NCBI GenBank assembly: GCA_036245525.1
Contig: BTPG01000004.1
Span: 23,040,272 to 23,104,271 of the forward strand
Source: Semisulcospira habei
Taxonomy: Eukaryota > Mollusca > Gastropoda > Semisulcospiridae
Direction: 5' to 3'
DNA: 64,000 nt
The notes under the pieces are model-generated. The model was not told where the DNA came from. It made no database searches and saw only the letters and a program-made list of their open reading frames with translations. Positions within the stretch are counted from its first letter, which is position 1, and each line of letters begins with the position of its first letter. Made by a program: the position numbers and the translations under genes. Below are positions 3,079-64,000 of this stretch, piece by piece.

Positions 3079-3972
3079 CAGTGTTGATTCTAGAGCACGT
3101 TTTGCGCGATGTCTCGCAATATTATGCTCCAAATCGCAAAAAAAACACAGATAGCGCGGCCGAAGAATCGCAGAAAAAAGAAACTGGACGTTTTTTTGCA
3201 CGACCAGCGCGGCCGCACCGCTGCTGCGTAAAAGCCTGCTCGAGCGTCTTGGTGCAGTGTGGCCTGAGTCGAGCCAGGGCAATTTCACTATTATTCACCT
3301 GTTTAACACGAACACAGATTCCATTCACAGAAAACCAATTCACGTGTCGCTCTCGCGCTGTGGAAGTACACATGACAGATCAGAGCGAACTCTAGTCTGT
3401 GAGTGGCTGAATAGCCTTCGGCTGTTGTAATCTGTCTTCTCATTGGCTAGCATTTCTGTACTGTATTCATGTTGTATCATTCATGTATCAACACAACCCT
3501 TTTACCGATGCGGGATTGTACTTCAGCCTGTGTTGCTTTTACCTGAGGATTGTAACTTAGTATGGATTTTACCTGATGGATTTACATTAAATACTCGAGC
3601 TGTACACGTTTCCTTGTGTTTTCCTAGCGAACTGAAGGTATGCATAGAAAGTACGATAATGTCGTGTACTTTTAACCTGGTACTCATTCACGCACACGTC
3701 TTACACACTTTCTCCTTGAGGGCCGTGATCAATTATGAGGCCATATTGGTTAACACGAAATACGGTTAACACGAAGTGATTTTCTGCCGTGTCCCCAGAA
3801 ATTTGTGTTAAGCGGAATCCACTGTATGTATGAATGTGTGTAGTATATGTCGTTTTAAAGTAAGCAGTGCAACGCGATTTGAGGGCCTCCCTTTTACACC
3901 TTGAGGGGCTCCCTTTTTTTTTAATTAGAGGGAGCCTTTGAGCTCACTTCTGAAATCCTAGAATCAACACTG
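3079..3972. mobile_element. Non-autonomous DNA element, TIR CAGTGTTGATTCTAG
   Basis: It begins CAGTGTTGATTCTAG and ends with its exact reverse complement, a 15-bp terminal inverted repeat. It is flanked by GGTATA (3073-3078 and 3973-3978). The other arm of the inverted repeat shows the site with one copy only. Inside, 3262-3826 is a partial copy of the Tigger-like MITE seen complete at 53488-54378. No transposase frame. Confidence 0.8.
3262..3826 (+). mobile_element. Partial Tigger-like MITE
   Basis: Shares the AACACGAA-rich sequence, the internal block GCAATTTCACTATTATTCAC and the right end GTTAAGCGGAATCCACTGTA with the complete copy at 53488-54378. Its left terminus is missing. Confidence 0.75.
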
Positions 3973-50224: not shown

Positions 50225-50293
50225 GTGTACACATCAGGGAAAGGCAGCAGTGCAGCTGGTCTAACGGCATCGGTCAACAGAGACCCGCAGACT
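50225..50293 (+). CDS. MCM5: MCM5 exon G
   Basis: 69 nt, 23 codons, phase 0 at both ends. It encodes VYTSGKGSSAAGLTASVNRD followed by PQT, the conserved stretch that follows Walker A in all MCMs. Acceptor TTTCAG, donor GTAAGT. The RAG1-like transposon begins only about 120 bp downstream. Confidence 0.96.
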
Positions 50294-50417
50294 GTAAGTG
50301 GCATGATTTGTGGGTAAATAACTTTAGTTAACAAAATGTCTTGAACTTGAAATGTCAGTGCATTTTTGTTCTCGTTTTAGTGATTTTTTTAATAAGCACT
50401 GATGTCAAGAGTTTTGT

Positions 50418-51016
50418 CACGGCTTTACCAGCCAGTGCTGGCGCCTAGCACTTAGTTCGCTTCCAGCTGCCAGAGAGATAAGGCGCCGCGAGGTCACATA
50501 CCACAAGCACTTAGTTCGCTTCCAGCTGCCAGAGAGATAAGGCGCCGCGAGGTCACATTCCACTCTCGCCCGCTCATTCTATTTATATCACACTTGGTAC
50601 TGTGGGGTACACACGGCTCTACAGTGTGACCGGCGCTCTGCCGCTATAACAACTACCTACTGGTTTGTATTCATAACACATCTCTGCCTAAAGTGACTGT
50701 TGTGGAAGCAACATCGTTCAAAAGTTGAAATTCTCACCTACACACAGATACCAAACATGACAACATTACGACTTACACTTGTGTAGCAGGTTATGATGAA
50801 AATAAAGGGAACGCGAATTTGTTGATGTATGATGTCGGTGTTTGTTGTGAAATTGACAAAGTTCCCACAGCCATAACACGAAGACGTAACTTTTCCCAAC
50901 GAAACACACTTGCATGCATAAGGGTCAGCATGCCTACAGTAAGTATCACTTACCGGATTTTCGTTCCATGGTGGGGGACGGAAGCAGGAGGGTGGTTAAT
51001 GAGGTCACTGACAGGT
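50418..51016 (+). repeat. Left TIR of the RAG1-like transposon
   Basis: Reverse complement of 55877-56405. It is longer because 59 bp starting CACTTAGTTCGCTTCCAGC are duplicated in tandem (50449 and 50508). Confidence 0.9.
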
Positions 51017-51107
51017 CGCGTGTTCTGGCATTTCTAGCCCGCAGCCGTTTCGGTACTCCACAGACTGCTATTGCCATCCCAAAATACGATCAGTCCATAA
51101 CAGGTCA

Positions 51108-51882
51108 CAGGGCTCGAAATTAGCGGGGGCCCGGGGCCAAAAACCCGCAAAGTTGATTTCGGGCTCGGAAAGTTGAAAAACGAAGGGCCCGCTTGGCCCG
51201 CAAAATAATTCGTCTGCTACAGCTAGCTCTACTCGGCAGTTTCGTATTTGGGCCAAGGGAAGCAACCCACACCGGTGCCCTAAATTTGGACAGAAGTGTA
51301 ATATGAATAGATGATTGAAAAAAAAAGAAAAAGAAAAGGCAAAATCTGTTTGTTTAACTTTAGTTTATCAGGAAGAGTACTGTTAAGTTTAGTTCCCTTT
51401 CATGGTTTTGTTTTGAACTTTTGTGCATTGAGGTCAGATTTTTTGTTAGGTTACTCATATTAAAAATTTAATGATGTGTATTGTGCAATACTCAGTCACA
51501 AAACTGAAAAGTATTATACAAGAGACTCACTTGATTTTTTTCTATTTTGTTTAATGGCCATTTCAGGCTCACTAGTCACTGGAATATGTGTGTCACTGAA
51601 TGTGTGTGTGTGTGTGTTTTCCCCTTTTTTGTTGGTAATGTTTGAAAGTGAAAGAAAAGGCAAATAAAAATGACATCACTCAGCAAAATTGGAAATTCAA
51701 TTGTTTTTATTTTAGATTATCAGACAAATTGTACTTTCTACTTATTATATTGTCAATAATTCTTTTGTTTTTTGTTTGCATTATTTTTCAAAGTTGGGCC
51801 CCGAAAGTTGCTTGTGGGCCCTCAAATTTTTCAATCAAGGGGCCCGGTGGCCCCCAAAGAAAAAAGTTAATTTCTAGCCCTG
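51108..51882. mobile_element. Non-autonomous hAT-like element, TIR CAGGGCTCGAAATTA, TSD GGTCA
   Basis: 775 bp. Left end CAGGGCTCGAAATTAGC, right end reading CAGGGCTAGAAATTAAC. TSD GGTCA (51103-51107 and 51883-51887). No coding capacity. Nested between the left TIR and the transposase gene of the RAG1-like element. Confidence 0.85.
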
Positions 51883-52001
51883 GGTCACAATATTCAACAG
51901 TGTTTTTAAACATACCTTGAGGTTTAACACATTTTCTGACGCACTAGACATAAGAACCGAATACCGAGTTTCTGTTCACAGATACACAACTCCGGCGCCG
52001 T

Positions 52002-55000
52002 CTATGTGAGAATTTTTTTCTGTTTGACTACTGGAGGAATGACGGAGTGGAGGACGGGTGACACGAGTGTCATGTGCTCGGTCATGAGCAGTCTGAGTTT
52101 TTCCTCCTCTGTCTGCAAGCCATATGTCCTGCTCTTTAGAATGTTAATGGTAGCGTGACTCTCTTCACCTCCCTGCTCACCATGAAGCGCCAAACCAAAT
52201 CCCCACTTTGTCATAAATTCAATGCAGCGACATTCCAGGATGTGTTGTTTCGGAATGATGCTACTGGCTGGAAAAGTACTTCGAAAAAAACGCATGTAGT
52301 TTGCAATCTTGTCATTGATGTCTTGCATTGATTCATTTCTGCTCTTCACCGGCAGTTTGTGAGAAACATTAGTGTGGACTTGTGAGTACAGGTCGTTCAG
52401 AATTCGGAACTTTAAGTGACTGCTGCATGAAGTTTAGGATCATCTGTCAGCTTCATGGCATTGCTGATAACACTGTCACCAACATCAGTCAACACATCAT
52501 ACTTCAAGTAACGGTGGCAGTGGTTGCCAACAAACGAACGGCCATGGTATGCTTGCATGAATATCTTATTCCTCTTTATTGCTTCGTCAAGGCCAGAAGT
52601 GACAGGCCCGCACAGAAATGGCAACTTTGTCTCTTCTCTCAGAGCTTCTATTTTGTCCTCGAATTCTGCTACCCGCTGCATCTTCTGCTCACGTCGTTCA
52701 TCAAAATGTTTTGCACTCTCATTGTGTCTCTTGTCACTCAACACTGCAATACCCTCAGGCAGCTGTTTTCTTTTTTCCAGTTCTTTGATGACTCTTACTT
52801 CTGAAATGTACTTTTCAAAAGGTGTGTTTTCATCATGTGCCTCCTTTCCCTCGGCCAGTCTTTCAGCAATGGCTTTATCAAGTTCGTGGCATTCTTGCTC
52901 AAGGAGGGAATGATGTTTTTTTACTATACCTAACAGAAGATGGAGGTATGGTGGTGCCGTTTGCGAAATCTCAACATCAAAGATTGGTTCATGTACAACA
53001 TTGTTGTAACCCTTGGCATTCTTTTTGTCTCCTCCTGCACGAATCGCCTGTAATCCCTCTTGATGTTGTTCAGAGTTCTTTTTTTCACTTGTACTCGCTC
53101 ATGTGGAGCTCTTTGTAGCTGACTTTTCGAAGCTGTGCACCAGAGACAAGGGTGGACCCCTTGTGCTCCTGAGAGACCAAAAAGTTTGAGGAGAAAATCA
53201 TAATCTCCAAACAGAAATACACGTATCTGTTTTTCTTTCCATTTCATGGTTTGGAGAACTGACACCTGCTCTTTAAACGGCTGCAAAATTGTTTGAAGAT
53301 TTTCATGACTGTCTTTACAGTTAGCCATACACACCAAAAACGTATTGTGTTTAGAGTTAGGGTTTTGGAGATTAGCAACTTGAAGCATTGTTTTATAACT
53401 GTTACCGACATGATCTCCTCCTAGTTTTATCCAAATTTCATCTTTTGGTATTTGTTCATGCCATTCAAGAAGATTTGCAGCTTCATACAGTGGAGTCCAG
53501 TTAACACGAACTCGCTTAACACGAATTTCCGGTTAACACGAACCGCTTTTGCATTCCCGGCTGACGGCCTTCTTATTATGTATTAAAATTTCACTGATAA
53601 CACGAAATGCTTAACACGAAATTTTCGCTTAACACGAAGCTGTTTTCGGTTCCCGACCAGAGCAATTTCACTATTATTCACCTGTTTAACACGAACACAC
53701 ATTCCAGTCTCAAACACCGAAAACCGATTCATGAAAGGGGCACTGCACGTGTCGCTCTCGTGCTGTAGTACACACGACGCATGAACGAACTCTAGCCTGT
53801 GATTGGCTGAATAGCCTTCAGTCGTTGTAATCCGTCTTCTCATTGGCTAGTGTTTCTGAACTGAATTCATGCATCATTCGTGTACCAACACTCCCTCAAT
53901 TCAGTTAACTACCGATCACGGCTACCCCCAAGGTAAAACAGAAGTCGACTACGCTTGAAGTGAAAAAACAAGATTAATGAGATCCACGATTGTCTCTCTA
54001 CACGGGCTGTCAATAACGCAAGACTGACTTCGATCATGGCCCGTTTTTTAAATGACTTTGACTGTGTTGCTTTTACCGATGCCAGATGCCCGTGTTGCTT
54101 TTACTTTACTATGGATTTTACCTGATGGATTTTACGTTAACTACGTGAGCTGTACACATCCTTGTGTTTTCCTAGCGAGCTGAACGTAATGTAAGCATAT
54201 ATAGTACAATAATGTGCACTTTTAACCTCATACTCATTCATGCACGCATCTCTTACACACTTTTTCCTTGCCGGGAGGGCCGTGATCAATTTTGAGGCCA
54301 TATTGGTTAACACGAAATACGGTTAACACGAAGTGATTTTCCGTGTCCCCAGAAATTCGTGTTAAGCGGACTCCACTGTACTTGTTAAGCAGTTCAGGAA
54401 CAAAATGTGTGAGATCTTCTATGTATGCGACAGGCGTTTTCTGGCTTTCCTTCTTGTTCGTGACTTTGTTTTCAAAGGTCAGATTCTTTTGTTCAATGGT
54501 CACTCTGCCACAGAGTGCTTCCTTCTGGGCCTGCCTTTCTTTCTTTCACTTTCAAGGTTGACACCAATACTTCTCATGAAGCGTTTGTATGTTCTGTACT
54601 TGGACCAGCTTAATCCTAGATTGGTTCTCAGCGCAATACCCTGTTTTCTACAGACATATATGGATCGCCTATGGCCTGCTCTGTCTAATATTGCAGTCAT
54701 TTTTTCATTTCTTTCTCGTCTTAACTCGTCAGCTATTTGTTCAGCTTCGTCCACCTCTGATCCACCAGATATATTCGCTCTAACATGGGCTAGCACCTTC
54801 GACCTTCTTTGTATTACGGCCGATGATGCCACTGTTGTTGGTTTTCTTGGTTTGGGTATGTGCATAAAATACAAAGGCTGTCCTCCAGTCTCGCAACGAA
54901 TTGTGGCATCAGCTGATTCATTAAGCATTGTGCGGTTTAGTGCCGTCTGATATTTTTCTTCCTCCTTTGTCAGTGGCATCTGCAGTTCCTGGATAGGTCG

Positions 55001-55711
55001 AAGGCTGGGTCGTTTGATATGTGGAGATGTGGCTATATCGACACCCGTTTTTTCAATGGGTGAAATGGCTATTTCATGCGTCCGCTTTGCTGGTGGAGAT
55101 GGGGTCCACACTCTTTGTAACGGCGACGTTTGAGCATCGACTGTGCATGGCGTTTTATGGGGAGTAGACGTCGGCGGAATGAAAACTTGTATACCACTAT
55201 CACCTTCATTAGTGCTGTTATTAGTGTCAGTGTTATGAGTGTCACATTCCGCGGATTGAAACGATCGTTTCTTTCCATGCCGCGAACCCCGCTTTGCTGG
55301 TCGTCCTCCTTTACCTAGCTGCATGAAGTGAACACACGCGACACATTCTTCAACACTCGTATTTGGATCGAACATGGTCCAAATGTGTTGTGATGAGGCA
55401 ATATCAGACGCCGCATTTCGCGTTGTCTCCTCGGACACGCGTGTTTCAGTCGAGTCTATCCGTTTCATCCGACTATAGCAACTCATACACATTGTTTTTG
55501 AGTGCATCATGTCTTTGTCTTCCTGGATATTAATTCCATAACACTTGTGGAGTAAGTGTTCATAATTGATACAAAGAAATGACTTTTTATCACTGTGTTT
55601 CTTTTGTGATCTCTCGCCACACATTCTGCACAATGCATTTACTCTCATTGCATGGAACACACCTGTGTGTACACAGACTGTACGCGTTTCATCAGACTCC
55701 ATCATGATCAA
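52002..55711 (-). pseudogene. Transposase with RAG1-like N-terminal zinc region and DDE-type core
   Basis: N-terminal 55711-54500 (start Met at about 55702-55705) is about 400 residues. It has NALCRMCGERS, a spacer ending GINIQEDKDMMHSKTMCMSC, YSRMKR, and after ~30 residues VEECVACVHF with basic GRPAKRGSRHGKKR. The CxxC, D-x-IH-x-FCxxC and CxxC spacing follows the zinc-binding N-terminal region of RAG1. The core then continues: LTHFVPELLNKY (interrupted by a Tigger MITE, frame restored to YEAANLLEWHEQIP), KLGGDHVGNSYKTMLQ (first Asp), RVFLFGDYDFLLKLFGLSGA (second Asp), HPCLWC, QTAPPYLHLLLGI, AYHGRSFVGNHCH, and FGLALHGEQGGEESHA (likely catalytic Glu). Lesions: frameshifts near 54500, 53030 and 52410, plus the insertion. 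Confidence 0.85.
53488..54378. mobile_element. Tigger-like (pogo/mariner) MITE
   Basis: 891 bp. Ends CAGTGGAGTCCAGTTAACAC and the matching GTGTTAAGCGGACTCCACTG, TA on both sides (53486-53487 and 54379-54380). Repeated TTAACACGAA blocks near each end. No transposase. It splits a Tyr codon of the RAG1-like transposase exactly at TA. Confidence 0.9.
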
Positions 55712-55876
55712 AAGTTAAATCAAAAGTACATTTACAAGGTTGACTGTTAGTGTTACACTATTTCCCAAGAAAGAAACGTGGCTATCTCCTCCAATAGTAT
55801 CCGTGTAACTAAGCCCTCTCTTTCCCCAATTCCGGGAGTGTACACTAAGGCGGATGTCTGGAAATTGTCTGTCGAC

Positions 55877-56405
55877 ACCTGTCAGTGACCTCATTAATTA
55901 CCCTCCTGCTTCCATCCCCCACCATGGAACGAAAATCCGGTAAGTGATACTTACTGTAGGCATGCTGACCCTTATGCATGCAAGTGTGTATCCTTGGGAA
56001 AAGTTACGTCTTTGTGTTATGGCTGTGGGAACTTTGTCAATTTTACAACAAACACCGACATCATAAATCAACAAATTTGCGTTCCCTTTATTTTCATCAT
56101 AACCTGCTACACAAGTGCAAGTCGTAATGTTGTCATGTTTGGTATCAGTGTGTAGGTGAGAATTTCAACTTTTGAACGATGTTGCTTCCACAACAGTCAC
56201 TTTAGGCAGAGATGTGTTATGAATACAAACCAGTAGGTAGTTGTTATAGCGGCAGAGCGCCGGTCACACTGTAGAGCCGTGTGTACCCCACAGTACCAAG
56301 TGTGATATAAATAGAATGAGCGGGCGAGAGTGGAATGTGACCTCGCGGCGCCTTATCTCTCTGGCAGCTGGAAGCGAACTAAGTGTCAGCTATGGTAAAG
56401 GCGTG
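55877..56405 (-). repeat. Right TIR of the RAG1-like transposon
   Basis: Matches the left TIR at well over 95% by eye. One notable difference is TGTATCCTTGGG against TGTTTCGTTGGG near 55985. Confidence 0.9.
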
Positions 56406-56442
56406 TTGTTGTTGTTTATTTTCAGTTATTTTTGTTTTGTGT

Positions 56443-56459: not shown

Positions 56460-56929
<470 letters not shown>

Positions 56930-61370: not shown

Positions 61371-64000
61371 ATGGACAAGCAACAGAATAAGAATAACATG
61401 CCGGATCGGTCGGGGCCCGGATCACCAACGACCGCGCACCCCATTGGAGGTCTCCAGGGTGGGGGCGACAAGTGTGTTACTGGAACCAAACCCACCATCA
61501 AGCTGCCCACGCAAGGAATAACTATCGGAACTTGGAACGTTCGCACACTCTACCAGTGCGGCAAAGTGAAGGAACTCACCCACGAGTTGAAGCGCTATCG
61601 CTGGGACATTGTAGGACTTGCAGAAGTTCGATGGACAGGCTTCGGAGAAACAACAACAGATGAAGGCCATAAAATCTGGTTCAGCGGAAAAGAAACCAAG
61701 CACGAACATGGCGTAGCTTTTATCGTAAGGAAAGAGGTGGCTGGAACTGTCATCAGCTGCACCCCCGTGTCAAGCAGACTAATCTCCATCCGCATCTCCG
61801 CCCGACCGCACAACATCACTATCATTCAAGTATACGCTCCAACAGCAGATCATGATGATGAAGAATTAGAAGAATTTTACGAACAACTGGACAACATCAT
61901 CAAGAAAACACCTAAGAAAGACATTCTGACTGTCCTCGGTGACTGGAATGCAAAGATCGGCCCTGACGCCTACCAACAATGGGCAGGAACAGCTGGCAAG
62001 TTTGGCCTTGGAGAAACAAACGACAGAGGCCTGCGACTTTTAGAGTTCGCACAGAGTCACCGTCTCACCGTTGCTAATACCCTCCATCCACACAAGAAGT
62101 CAAGAACAGTGACATGGCAATCGCCAGGAGGCCTGGTCCATAACCAGATTGACTTCATCTTGCTGCCTCGACGATTCAAATCCAGCATTAACAAAGCACA
62201 AACGAGGTCCTTTCCTGGCGCTGATATTGGCAGCGACCACAACCTCGTCCTTACTAGCCTCAAGTTGAAGCTGGCATTGAAACGAGATAGCAAGAGCCCT
62301 CGCATCAGATTCGACCTCGAGAAGCTAAAAGACCCGGAAGTAGAAGAGGTCTTCCAAGCCCAGGTGGGAGGCAGATTTGCAGCCTTGGCTACTTTGGACT
62401 GCGACGTAGACACCCTTGCTGGAAATATAAAAGAGGTGTTACTTTCTACAGCAGAAGAAGTGCTGGGGAAGCAGAGGAAGCGCAAACAGCCCTGGGTCAC
62501 CAATGACATCCTCGATCTCTGTGATGAGAGGAGAGCCTGGAAGAAAAAGAGAGGCCAAGACCTCACATCAGCAAACAAGTACAGACTTGTCAACAAGAAG
62601 ATCAGGAAGAGGATGAAAAAAGCCAAAGAAGATTGGATTGAAGACCAGTGTTGTAGCGTGGAAGAGGGCATGGCAAACGGCAACAGCAAGAAGGCTTATG
62701 AAACGCTAAGGACCCTCACCAAGACTCAACAGCGAACAGCCACAGTCATCGAAGACAGCAGCGGCCAACTCCTTACGGAAAACACTGCTGTACTAAACAG
62801 ATGGACTGAGTACTGCCGAGACTTGTATAACTACAAGGCTGAGCCAGACACCAGCATCCTCCAAAACAACCAGGCTGGGGCCAGGAAGGCTGAAGACCTG
62901 CCAGTGTTAGCTGAAGAGGTGGAAGCAGCCGTACGCAGCCTGAAGGGAGGAAAGTCTCCAGGTGTAGACAACATACCTGCTGAACTGTTGAAACATGGAG
63001 GAGAAGTAACAACGAAGGTCCTCACTACACTCTGTCAAAAGATCTGGGAGCAAAAGAAATGGCCAGTAGAATGGACACAGTCTCTAGTGATCCCGCTCCC
63101 CAAGAAAGGAAACATGAAACAGTGCCAGAACTACAGAACTATCAGTCTGATAAGTCACCCTAGCAAAGTAATGCTTAGAATCATTCTCAACCGCCTCAAA
63201 ACTTTCGCCGAGGAACTGCTGGCAGAAGAACAGGCTGGCTTCAGAGTTGGAAGAAGCACTGTAGAGCAGATTTTCAACTGCCGCGTCCTGATCGAGAAAC
63301 ATCTGCAGCATCAGCGCGAACTCTACCACAACTTCATTGATTTCAGGAAAGCATTTGATCGCGTCTGGCACGACGGACTCTGGCAAGTCATGAGATCGTT
63401 CAACATAGAGGAGGGACTGATCCAAATGATAGAAGCGCTTTACAAGAACGCCTGCAGCGCGGTTCTACTTAACAATCAGTCAGGCGAGTTCTTCAGGACG
63501 ACGATCGGTGTCCGTCAAGGATGCCTGCTCTCTCCTGTCCTTTTCAACATATTCCTGGAGAAGATCATGCAGGAAACCCTCCACGACCACCATACTTCAA
63601 TCTCTATTGGTGGCAGATCCCTGTGCAATCTTCGATTCGCAGACGATATTGACCTCATGGCAGGCAGCAATAGTGAGCTCCAAAACCTGACAGACAAACT
63701 TTCAAGTAGCGCAGGGTCTTATGGCATGGAGATCAGTACGGATAAAAGCAAAGTGATGATCAACACCACAAGCGACAGCAGCAGCAACATTCACATGAAC
63801 GGCCAGAAGCTAGAAGAGGTCAATAGCTTCAAGTACTTGGGAGCCACCCTGTCCAAAGACGGTAGTTGCGTAGCAGAGATCCGTATCAGGATAGGTACAG
63901 CAACATCCGCAATGGCCAGGCTGGACAGGATATGGCGAAGTAACTCCATCAGCTTCACCATCAAGTACAGGCTTTACAAGTCCCTCGTAGTGTCTATTCT
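61371..64000 (+). CDS. Intact LINE endonuclease/reverse transcriptase (runs off right edge)
   Basis: An ATG at 61371 (MDKQQNKNNMPDRSGPGS) opens 876 codons without a stop up to the window edge. Endonuclease: ITIGTWNVRTLYQCGKVKEL, IVGLAEVRWTGFGE, IIQVYAPTAD, LGDWNAKIGPD, NQIDFILLPRRF, GSDHNLVLTSL. Reverse transcriptase: LKGGKSPGVDNIPAELLKHG, QNYRTISLISHPSKVMLRII, EQAGFRVGRSTVEQIFNCRV, NFIDFRKAFDRVWHDGLWQV, GVRQGCLLSPVLFNIFLEKI, LRFADDIDLMAGS (catalytic FADD), then FKYLGATLSKDGS. It is an RTE-like EN+RT LINE, of the same broad clade as 14462-15376 and different from 28570-31865. It inserted in the MCM5 intron after exon I; about 220 bp before the ATG look like its 5-prime leader. Confidence 0.93.
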   Translation, partial: MDKQQNKNNMPDRSGPGSPTTAHPIGGLQGGGDKCVTGTKPTIKLPTQGITIGTWNVRTLYQCGKVKELTHELKRYRWDIVGLAEVRWTGFGETTTDEGHKIWFSGKETKHEHGVAFIVRKEVAGTVISCTPVSSRLISIRISARPHNITIIQVYAPTADHDDEELEEFYEQLDNIIKKTPKKDILTVLGDWNAKIGPDAYQQWAGTAGKFGLGETNDRGLRLLEFAQSHRLTVANTLHPHKKSRTVTWQSPGGLVHNQIDFILLPRRFKSSINKAQTRSFPGADIGSDHNLVLTSLKLKLALKRDSKSPRIRFDLEKLKDPEVEEVFQAQVGGRFAALATLDCDVDTLAGNIKEVLLSTAEEVLGKQRKRKQPWVTNDILDLCDERRAWKKKRGQDLTSANKYRLVNKKIRKRMKKAKEDWIEDQCCSVEEGMANGNSKKAYETLRTLTKTQQRTATVIEDSSGQLLTENTAVLNRWTEYCRDLYNYKAEPDTSILQNNQAGARKAEDLPVLAEEVEAAVRSLKGGKSPGVDNIPAELLKHGGEVTTKVLTTLCQKIWEQKKWPVEWTQSLVIPLPKKGNMKQCQNYRTISLISHPSKVMLRIILNRLKTFAEELLAEEQAGFRVGRSTVEQIFNCRVLIEKHLQHQRELYHNFIDFRKAFDRVWHDGLWQVMRSFNIEEGLIQMIEALYKNACSAVLLNNQSGEFFRTTIGVRQGCLLSPVLFNIFLEKIMQETLHDHHTSISIGGRSLCNLRFADDIDLMAGSNSELQNLTDKLSSSAGSYGMEISTDKSKVMINTTSDSSSNIHMNGQKLEEVNSFKYLGATLSKDGSCVAEIRIRIGTATSAMARLDRIWRSNSISFTIKYRLYKSLVVSI

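Follow-up and report, generated by a model that had tools for sequence, protein, structure and literature searches.

The window analysed here, a stretch of 64,000 nucleotides from the gastropod Semisulcospira habei (contig BTPG01000004.1), very probably contains a dead Chapaev-type DNA transposon, which lies in an intron of the MCM5 gene and is likely to have moved by cut-and-paste. Its gene combines a RAG1-like zinc-binding N-terminus with a DDE core of predicted RAG1/Transib-like fold. The original prediction, made on the same stretch, had described a RAG1-like transposon and taken it to bear on the assembly of RAG1.

Ends, catalytic core and N-terminal domain

The terminal 13 bp at the two ends of the element were inverted copies of each other (CACGCCTTTACCA and CACGGCTTTACCA), identical at 12 of the 13 positions and starting with CAC, a match that never arose when the bases of the two flanks were shuffled 2000 times. 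Directly outside, the same ACAA was present on both sides; identity spanned four bases and was lost when five were compared, which gives a target duplication of 4 bp for this one insertion. The 13-bp ends and the flanking ACAA confirmed, to the base, the limits first proposed for the element (50418..56405). Further inside, two long inverted-repeat arms were observed. The repeat search had stopped short of the outermost 13 bp because a tandem duplication of 59 bp and a slight difference in length break up the arms; this subterminal duplication is present at the low-coordinate end of the element only. An element end at the edge of the 509-nt arms (56385 / 50447) was also considered and rejected, as no plain target duplication was found there and the outer 13-bp repeat was decisive.

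The catalytic core in the window matched DUF1280 (PF06918) with 46.1 bits, for a cut-off of 25 (E = 6e-12), and PF06918 was carried by all 35 relatives among the matches listed. DUF1280 is stated to be Chapaev transposases in the available part of PMC3985635, so a Transib/ProtoRAG identity was not supported. No match to the Pfam RAG1 core was found, with E-values of up to 10 admitted, in the four window pieces scanned or in the relative P0001, in a search where HMMER filters remove most matches above about 0.1, and a PDB sequence search with the window core piece returned no transposase and no RAG1. RAG1 was the best structural match of the core in the predicted model of a relative, which supports a core of DDE type whose fold is predicted to be RAG1-like; in a comparison with viral structures, one match fell under 0.001, a 200-amino-acid Sylvanvirus protein. 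The claim that a DDE-type core and a RAG1-type N-terminus are joined in one gene was supported.

For the N-terminal piece of the window, the best PDB match was the RAG1 chain 21wb, with an E-value of 0.15. When a family profile built from 34 of the 35 relatives was used, the relation to RAG1 became clear (1.6e-9 for 21wb and 1.1e-8 for full-length RAG1). The next match was 7po9_A (0.052), a Drosophila protein by name, which we take to be a zf-AD domain. Moreover, the Pfam cut-off for RAG1_imp_bd was passed by four of the nine relatives scanned (P0033, P0034, P0035 and P0037), and the order C-x2-C, H-x4-C-x2-C, W, C-x2-C was common to the window, most of the lettered relatives and RAG1. A regular-expression count of this motif (9/37) was too strict, missing relatives such as P0006 and P0035 in which the cysteine pairs are visible, and was not used. 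The RAG1-type N-terminus originally proposed is therefore related to RAG1 at the family level, although the window piece alone stayed under the Pfam cut-off.

Several observations weigh against the reading of the element as a Chapaev-type transposon with a RAG1-like N-terminus and core. The window N-terminal piece scored 14.5 bits against RAG1_imp_bd (cut-off 23.3) and slightly higher against zf-AD (16.6 bits; cut-off 28). Among the nine relatives scanned, three fell below the RAG1_imp_bd cut-off and two had no match, and the N-terminus of P0035, used as a query on 610 candidates, retrieved itself and two more relatives but no RAG1. Foldseek superposed the whole core on RAG1 loosely, with a root-mean-square deviation of 7-14 Å and a TM-score of 0.56-0.70 by RAG1 length. 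Taken alone, a 4-bp duplication would turn up in roughly 0.4% of random pairs, and probably more often in this A/C-rich flank; because a single copy was seen, the element ends rest on one insertion.

The same N-terminus and structural match would also be expected of a direct RAG1 relative of the RAGL/Transib lineage (ProtoRAG-like), and mollusc RAGL transposons with RAG1-type zinc motifs exist (PMC7204232, available part). We consider this identity very unlikely, given that the four pieces scanned and P0001 yielded DUF1280 and, with E-values of up to 10, no Pfam RAG1 core, and that the duplication is 4 bp, versus 5 bp for Transib in the available text of PMC4411706. The interval from the transposase gene to the repeats also leaves little space in which a RAG2-like gene could lie. 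Besides frames overlapping the transposase, the element held no open reading frame longer than 102 amino acids, and none of four such open reading frames scanned reached a Pfam cut-off.

Decay of the gene and surrounding insertions

A Chapaev-type transposase gene can be followed across the element, in a decayed state. P0001, a protein of 993 amino acids on a 3175-base contig, aligned with the window in five pieces with 49-68% identity (tblastn), and showed 50% identity over 96% of the window N-terminal query. Frame changes were found near 54530, near 53045 and near 52425, the last with missing residues, and the gene was further split by a nested element (53486-54380); the original prediction mentioned neither the nested element nor the frame breaks. 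The motifs that it had named, namely the N-terminal cysteine pattern and those of the core, were all present in the window, including HPCLWC (C(2)C) and YLH (LH). The H(4)H motif reads QHILECR, in which the second histidine is replaced by arginine; each of its histidines was present in 32 of the 33 lettered relatives. As a result of the nested element, the frame breaks at three or more places and the loss of this metal-ligand histidine, no functional transposase is expected from the copy, but an intact relative might still be able to use its ends.

The retention of the core motifs, with the exception of one histidine, could indicate that the host has domesticated the gene and that it is no dead transposon. 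This is less probable still than a RAGL/Transib identity, in view of at least three frame breaks, a nested element within the gene and recognisable transposon ends. The least credible explanation is a chimera or artefact, in which an unrelated zinc-finger exon lies beside an unrelated transposase or an assembly join brought the two together, as the five pieces and the frame changes between them might suggest: it is already contradicted by P0001 and other relatives, predicted as single proteins with both the zinc N-terminus and the core, and by the matched ends and target duplication of the element.

The steps by which the Chapaev-type element would have moved can be drawn from the established behaviour of RAG1 and Transib. 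A dimer of the intact enzyme would have bound the long inverted repeats and cut the DNA beside the terminal CAC. It would then have inserted the freed ends into target DNA at positions staggered by 4 bp, so that ACAA came to lie at each side; the N-terminus, which binds zinc, may have helped in dimerisation, nuclear import or regulation. Later the copy decayed: another element jumped into the gene at a TA, the frame was broken at three or more places, and the metal-ligand histidine was lost.

Table 1. Positions, in the window, of the element, its gene, the insertions and the flanking exons.
Feature	Positions	Strand	Description
Whole Chapaev-type element	50418..56405	-	5'-CAC...GTG-3' ends, by end comparison
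Target-site duplication	56406..56409	.	ACAA on the minus strand, directly outside the element end
Target-site duplication	50414..50417	.	ACAA on the minus strand, directly outside the element end
Inverted-repeat arm	55877..56385	-	509 nt, 98% identical to partner arm
Inverted-repeat arm	50508..51016	+	509 nt, 98% identical to partner arm
Subterminal unit, two tandem copies (50447-50504, 50506-50563)	50447..50563	.	59 bp start-to-start
Transposase piece 1: Chapa/RAG1-like zinc domain, linker, pre-core stretch	54521..55705	-	P0001 residues 1-431, 49% (tblastn)
Transposase piece 2, past a frame break	54381..54545	-	P0001 residues 424-484; last few aligned residues enter the nested element
Transposase piece 3: first and second conserved Asp, C(2)C motif	53041..53487	-	DUF1280 match 53251-53457
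Transposase piece 4: LH motif, insertion region, past a frame break	52439..53050	-	
Transposase piece 5: H(4)H with second His -> Arg, conserved Glu region, past a frame break	52035..52412	-	
Nested element splitting the transposase gene	53486..54380	.	25-bp inverted ends (92%), TA at both edges
Putative hAT-type non-autonomous insertion, between gene end and inverted repeat	51108..51897	.	Inverted CAGGGCT(C/A)GAAATTA ends
MCM5 exon, Walker A region VYTSGKGSSAAGLTASVNRDPQ	50225..50291	+	Upstream of the element; translation; edges by eye
MCM5 exon, Walker B region	56784..56926	+	Downstream of the element; edges by eye

The nested element has inverted ends of the CAGTGGAGTCC type and is presumably pogo/Tigger-like; similar stretches were found near the window start, at 3557-3826 (85%) and 3270-3494 (79%). 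The second insertion, which we assume to be of hAT type, has ends that resemble CAGGGCTCGAAATTAGC, with GGTCAC at each edge. At the edge of the window (63579-63656), a chance tblastn match drew attention to a short frame with an FADDIDL stretch, presumably a reverse-transcriptase fragment.

The placement of the element in an MCM5 intron agreed with the original prediction. The downstream exon matched MCM5 chains (phmmer E = 4e-25) and Pfam MCM (1.2e-23), and the upstream exon, with VYTSGKGSSAAGLTASVNRDPQ, is one that we take to encode the MCM5 Walker A region.

Relatives and the origin of RAG1

At least 35 relatives of the Chapaev-type transposase were found in public protein data, several of them predicted proteins of 900-1040 amino acids; Littorina saxatilis, Nucella lapillus and Lineus longissimus were among the organisms named. 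P0035, P0036 and P0037 exhibited matches to RAG1_imp_bd together with DUF1280. In P0035 and P0036, RING-finger matches below the cut-off were also observed (just under it for P0035, with 24.8 bits versus 27), and the domain order was as in RAG1. The Pfam scan gave no RING match in the window piece, P0001 or P0002. One relative from Nucella lapillus (P0012) is annotated as a 1594-amino-acid protein with PF00566, presumably the TBC domain, and DUF1280 in one gene model; the annotation is probably chimeric and spans a transposon within an intron.

It is possible, though less likely than not, that the collinearity between Chapaev transposases and RAG1 extends over the full length of the proteins, with a zinc N-terminus, a RING-like finger in some relatives, a G-G-(Q/R)-P motif and helices matching the nonamer-binding and dimerisation domains, and a DDE core. 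If so, the domain order of RAG1, including the nonamer-binding module, would be older than the split between Chapaev and Transib/RAG, and RAG1 would not have been assembled from N-RAG-TP plus Transib. An equivalent of the nonamer domain, with a GRP motif, is described in Transib in the available text of PMC9435367, where the term Chapaev is absent.

The architecture itself argues against an origin of RAG1 in which a Transib core was combined with the N-terminus of another transposon. This argument was made from Chapaev elements in 2015 (PMC4411706). There, an N-terminal part of RAG1 is named the Chapa domain and reported in transposases of both Chapaev and Chapaev3; in two Chapaev subgroups a RING finger comes after it, and the fusion of the Chapa domain with the catalytic core is concluded to be ancestral. 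Because that fusion had been so reported, the central inference of the original prediction was already in print, and its value as a new clue to the assembly of RAG1 was not supported. A RAG1-like N-terminus with a RAG1-like core is published for Chapaev, and the copy in the window is a fossil addition to a known family. What is added here is a lineage of Chapaev, for which public protein data hold at least 35 relatives, together with a good model whose core is RAG1-like; these could be used to test activity and to examine where the DNA-binding domains of RAG1 came from.

Comparison with known transposons

The hallmarks of Chapaev given in PMC4079192 were found in the element, the H(4)H motif being decayed here, and the 3-4 bp target duplication of Chapaev corresponds to the ACAA seen on both sides of this one insertion. 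In common with Chapaev (CMC group), the element has CAC/GTG ends, a 4-bp duplication, a DUF1280 core (DDE, C(2)C, LH and H(4)H) and a Chapa zinc N-terminus; this copy differs by the nested element, the frame breaks and the His -> Arg change in H(4)H, and a RING finger gave no match in the window piece, P0001 or P0002. Its inverted repeats, which exceed 500 bp, may be a further difference. Chapaev3, assigned to the Chapaev superfamily in the available parts of PMC4411706 and PMC4079192, has a 3-bp TWA duplication (PMC4079192), in contrast to ACAA here. For the wider CMCT clade, PMC12730594 gives CA..TG ends, duplications of 2-5 bp and the motifs C(2)C and H(3-4)H.

Aplysia N-RAG-TP is described in PMC8355894 and PMC2996935 as a transposon of a mollusc whose protein resembles the N-terminus of RAG1, a description that it has in common with the element. 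RAG1-type N-terminal zinc motifs are shared with RAGL (PMC7204232, available part), and a RAG1-type core fold, as predicted, with both Transib and RAGL/ProtoRAG. These differ from the element in sequence family, in the 5-bp duplications of Transib and in the RAG2-like gene carried by RAGL; the duplication here is 4 bp, and neither a RAG1-family core by sequence nor a RAG2-like gene was found in the pieces and open reading frames scanned. By its predicted fold, the element would work like RAG1 and Transib, yet it is filed as Chapaev.
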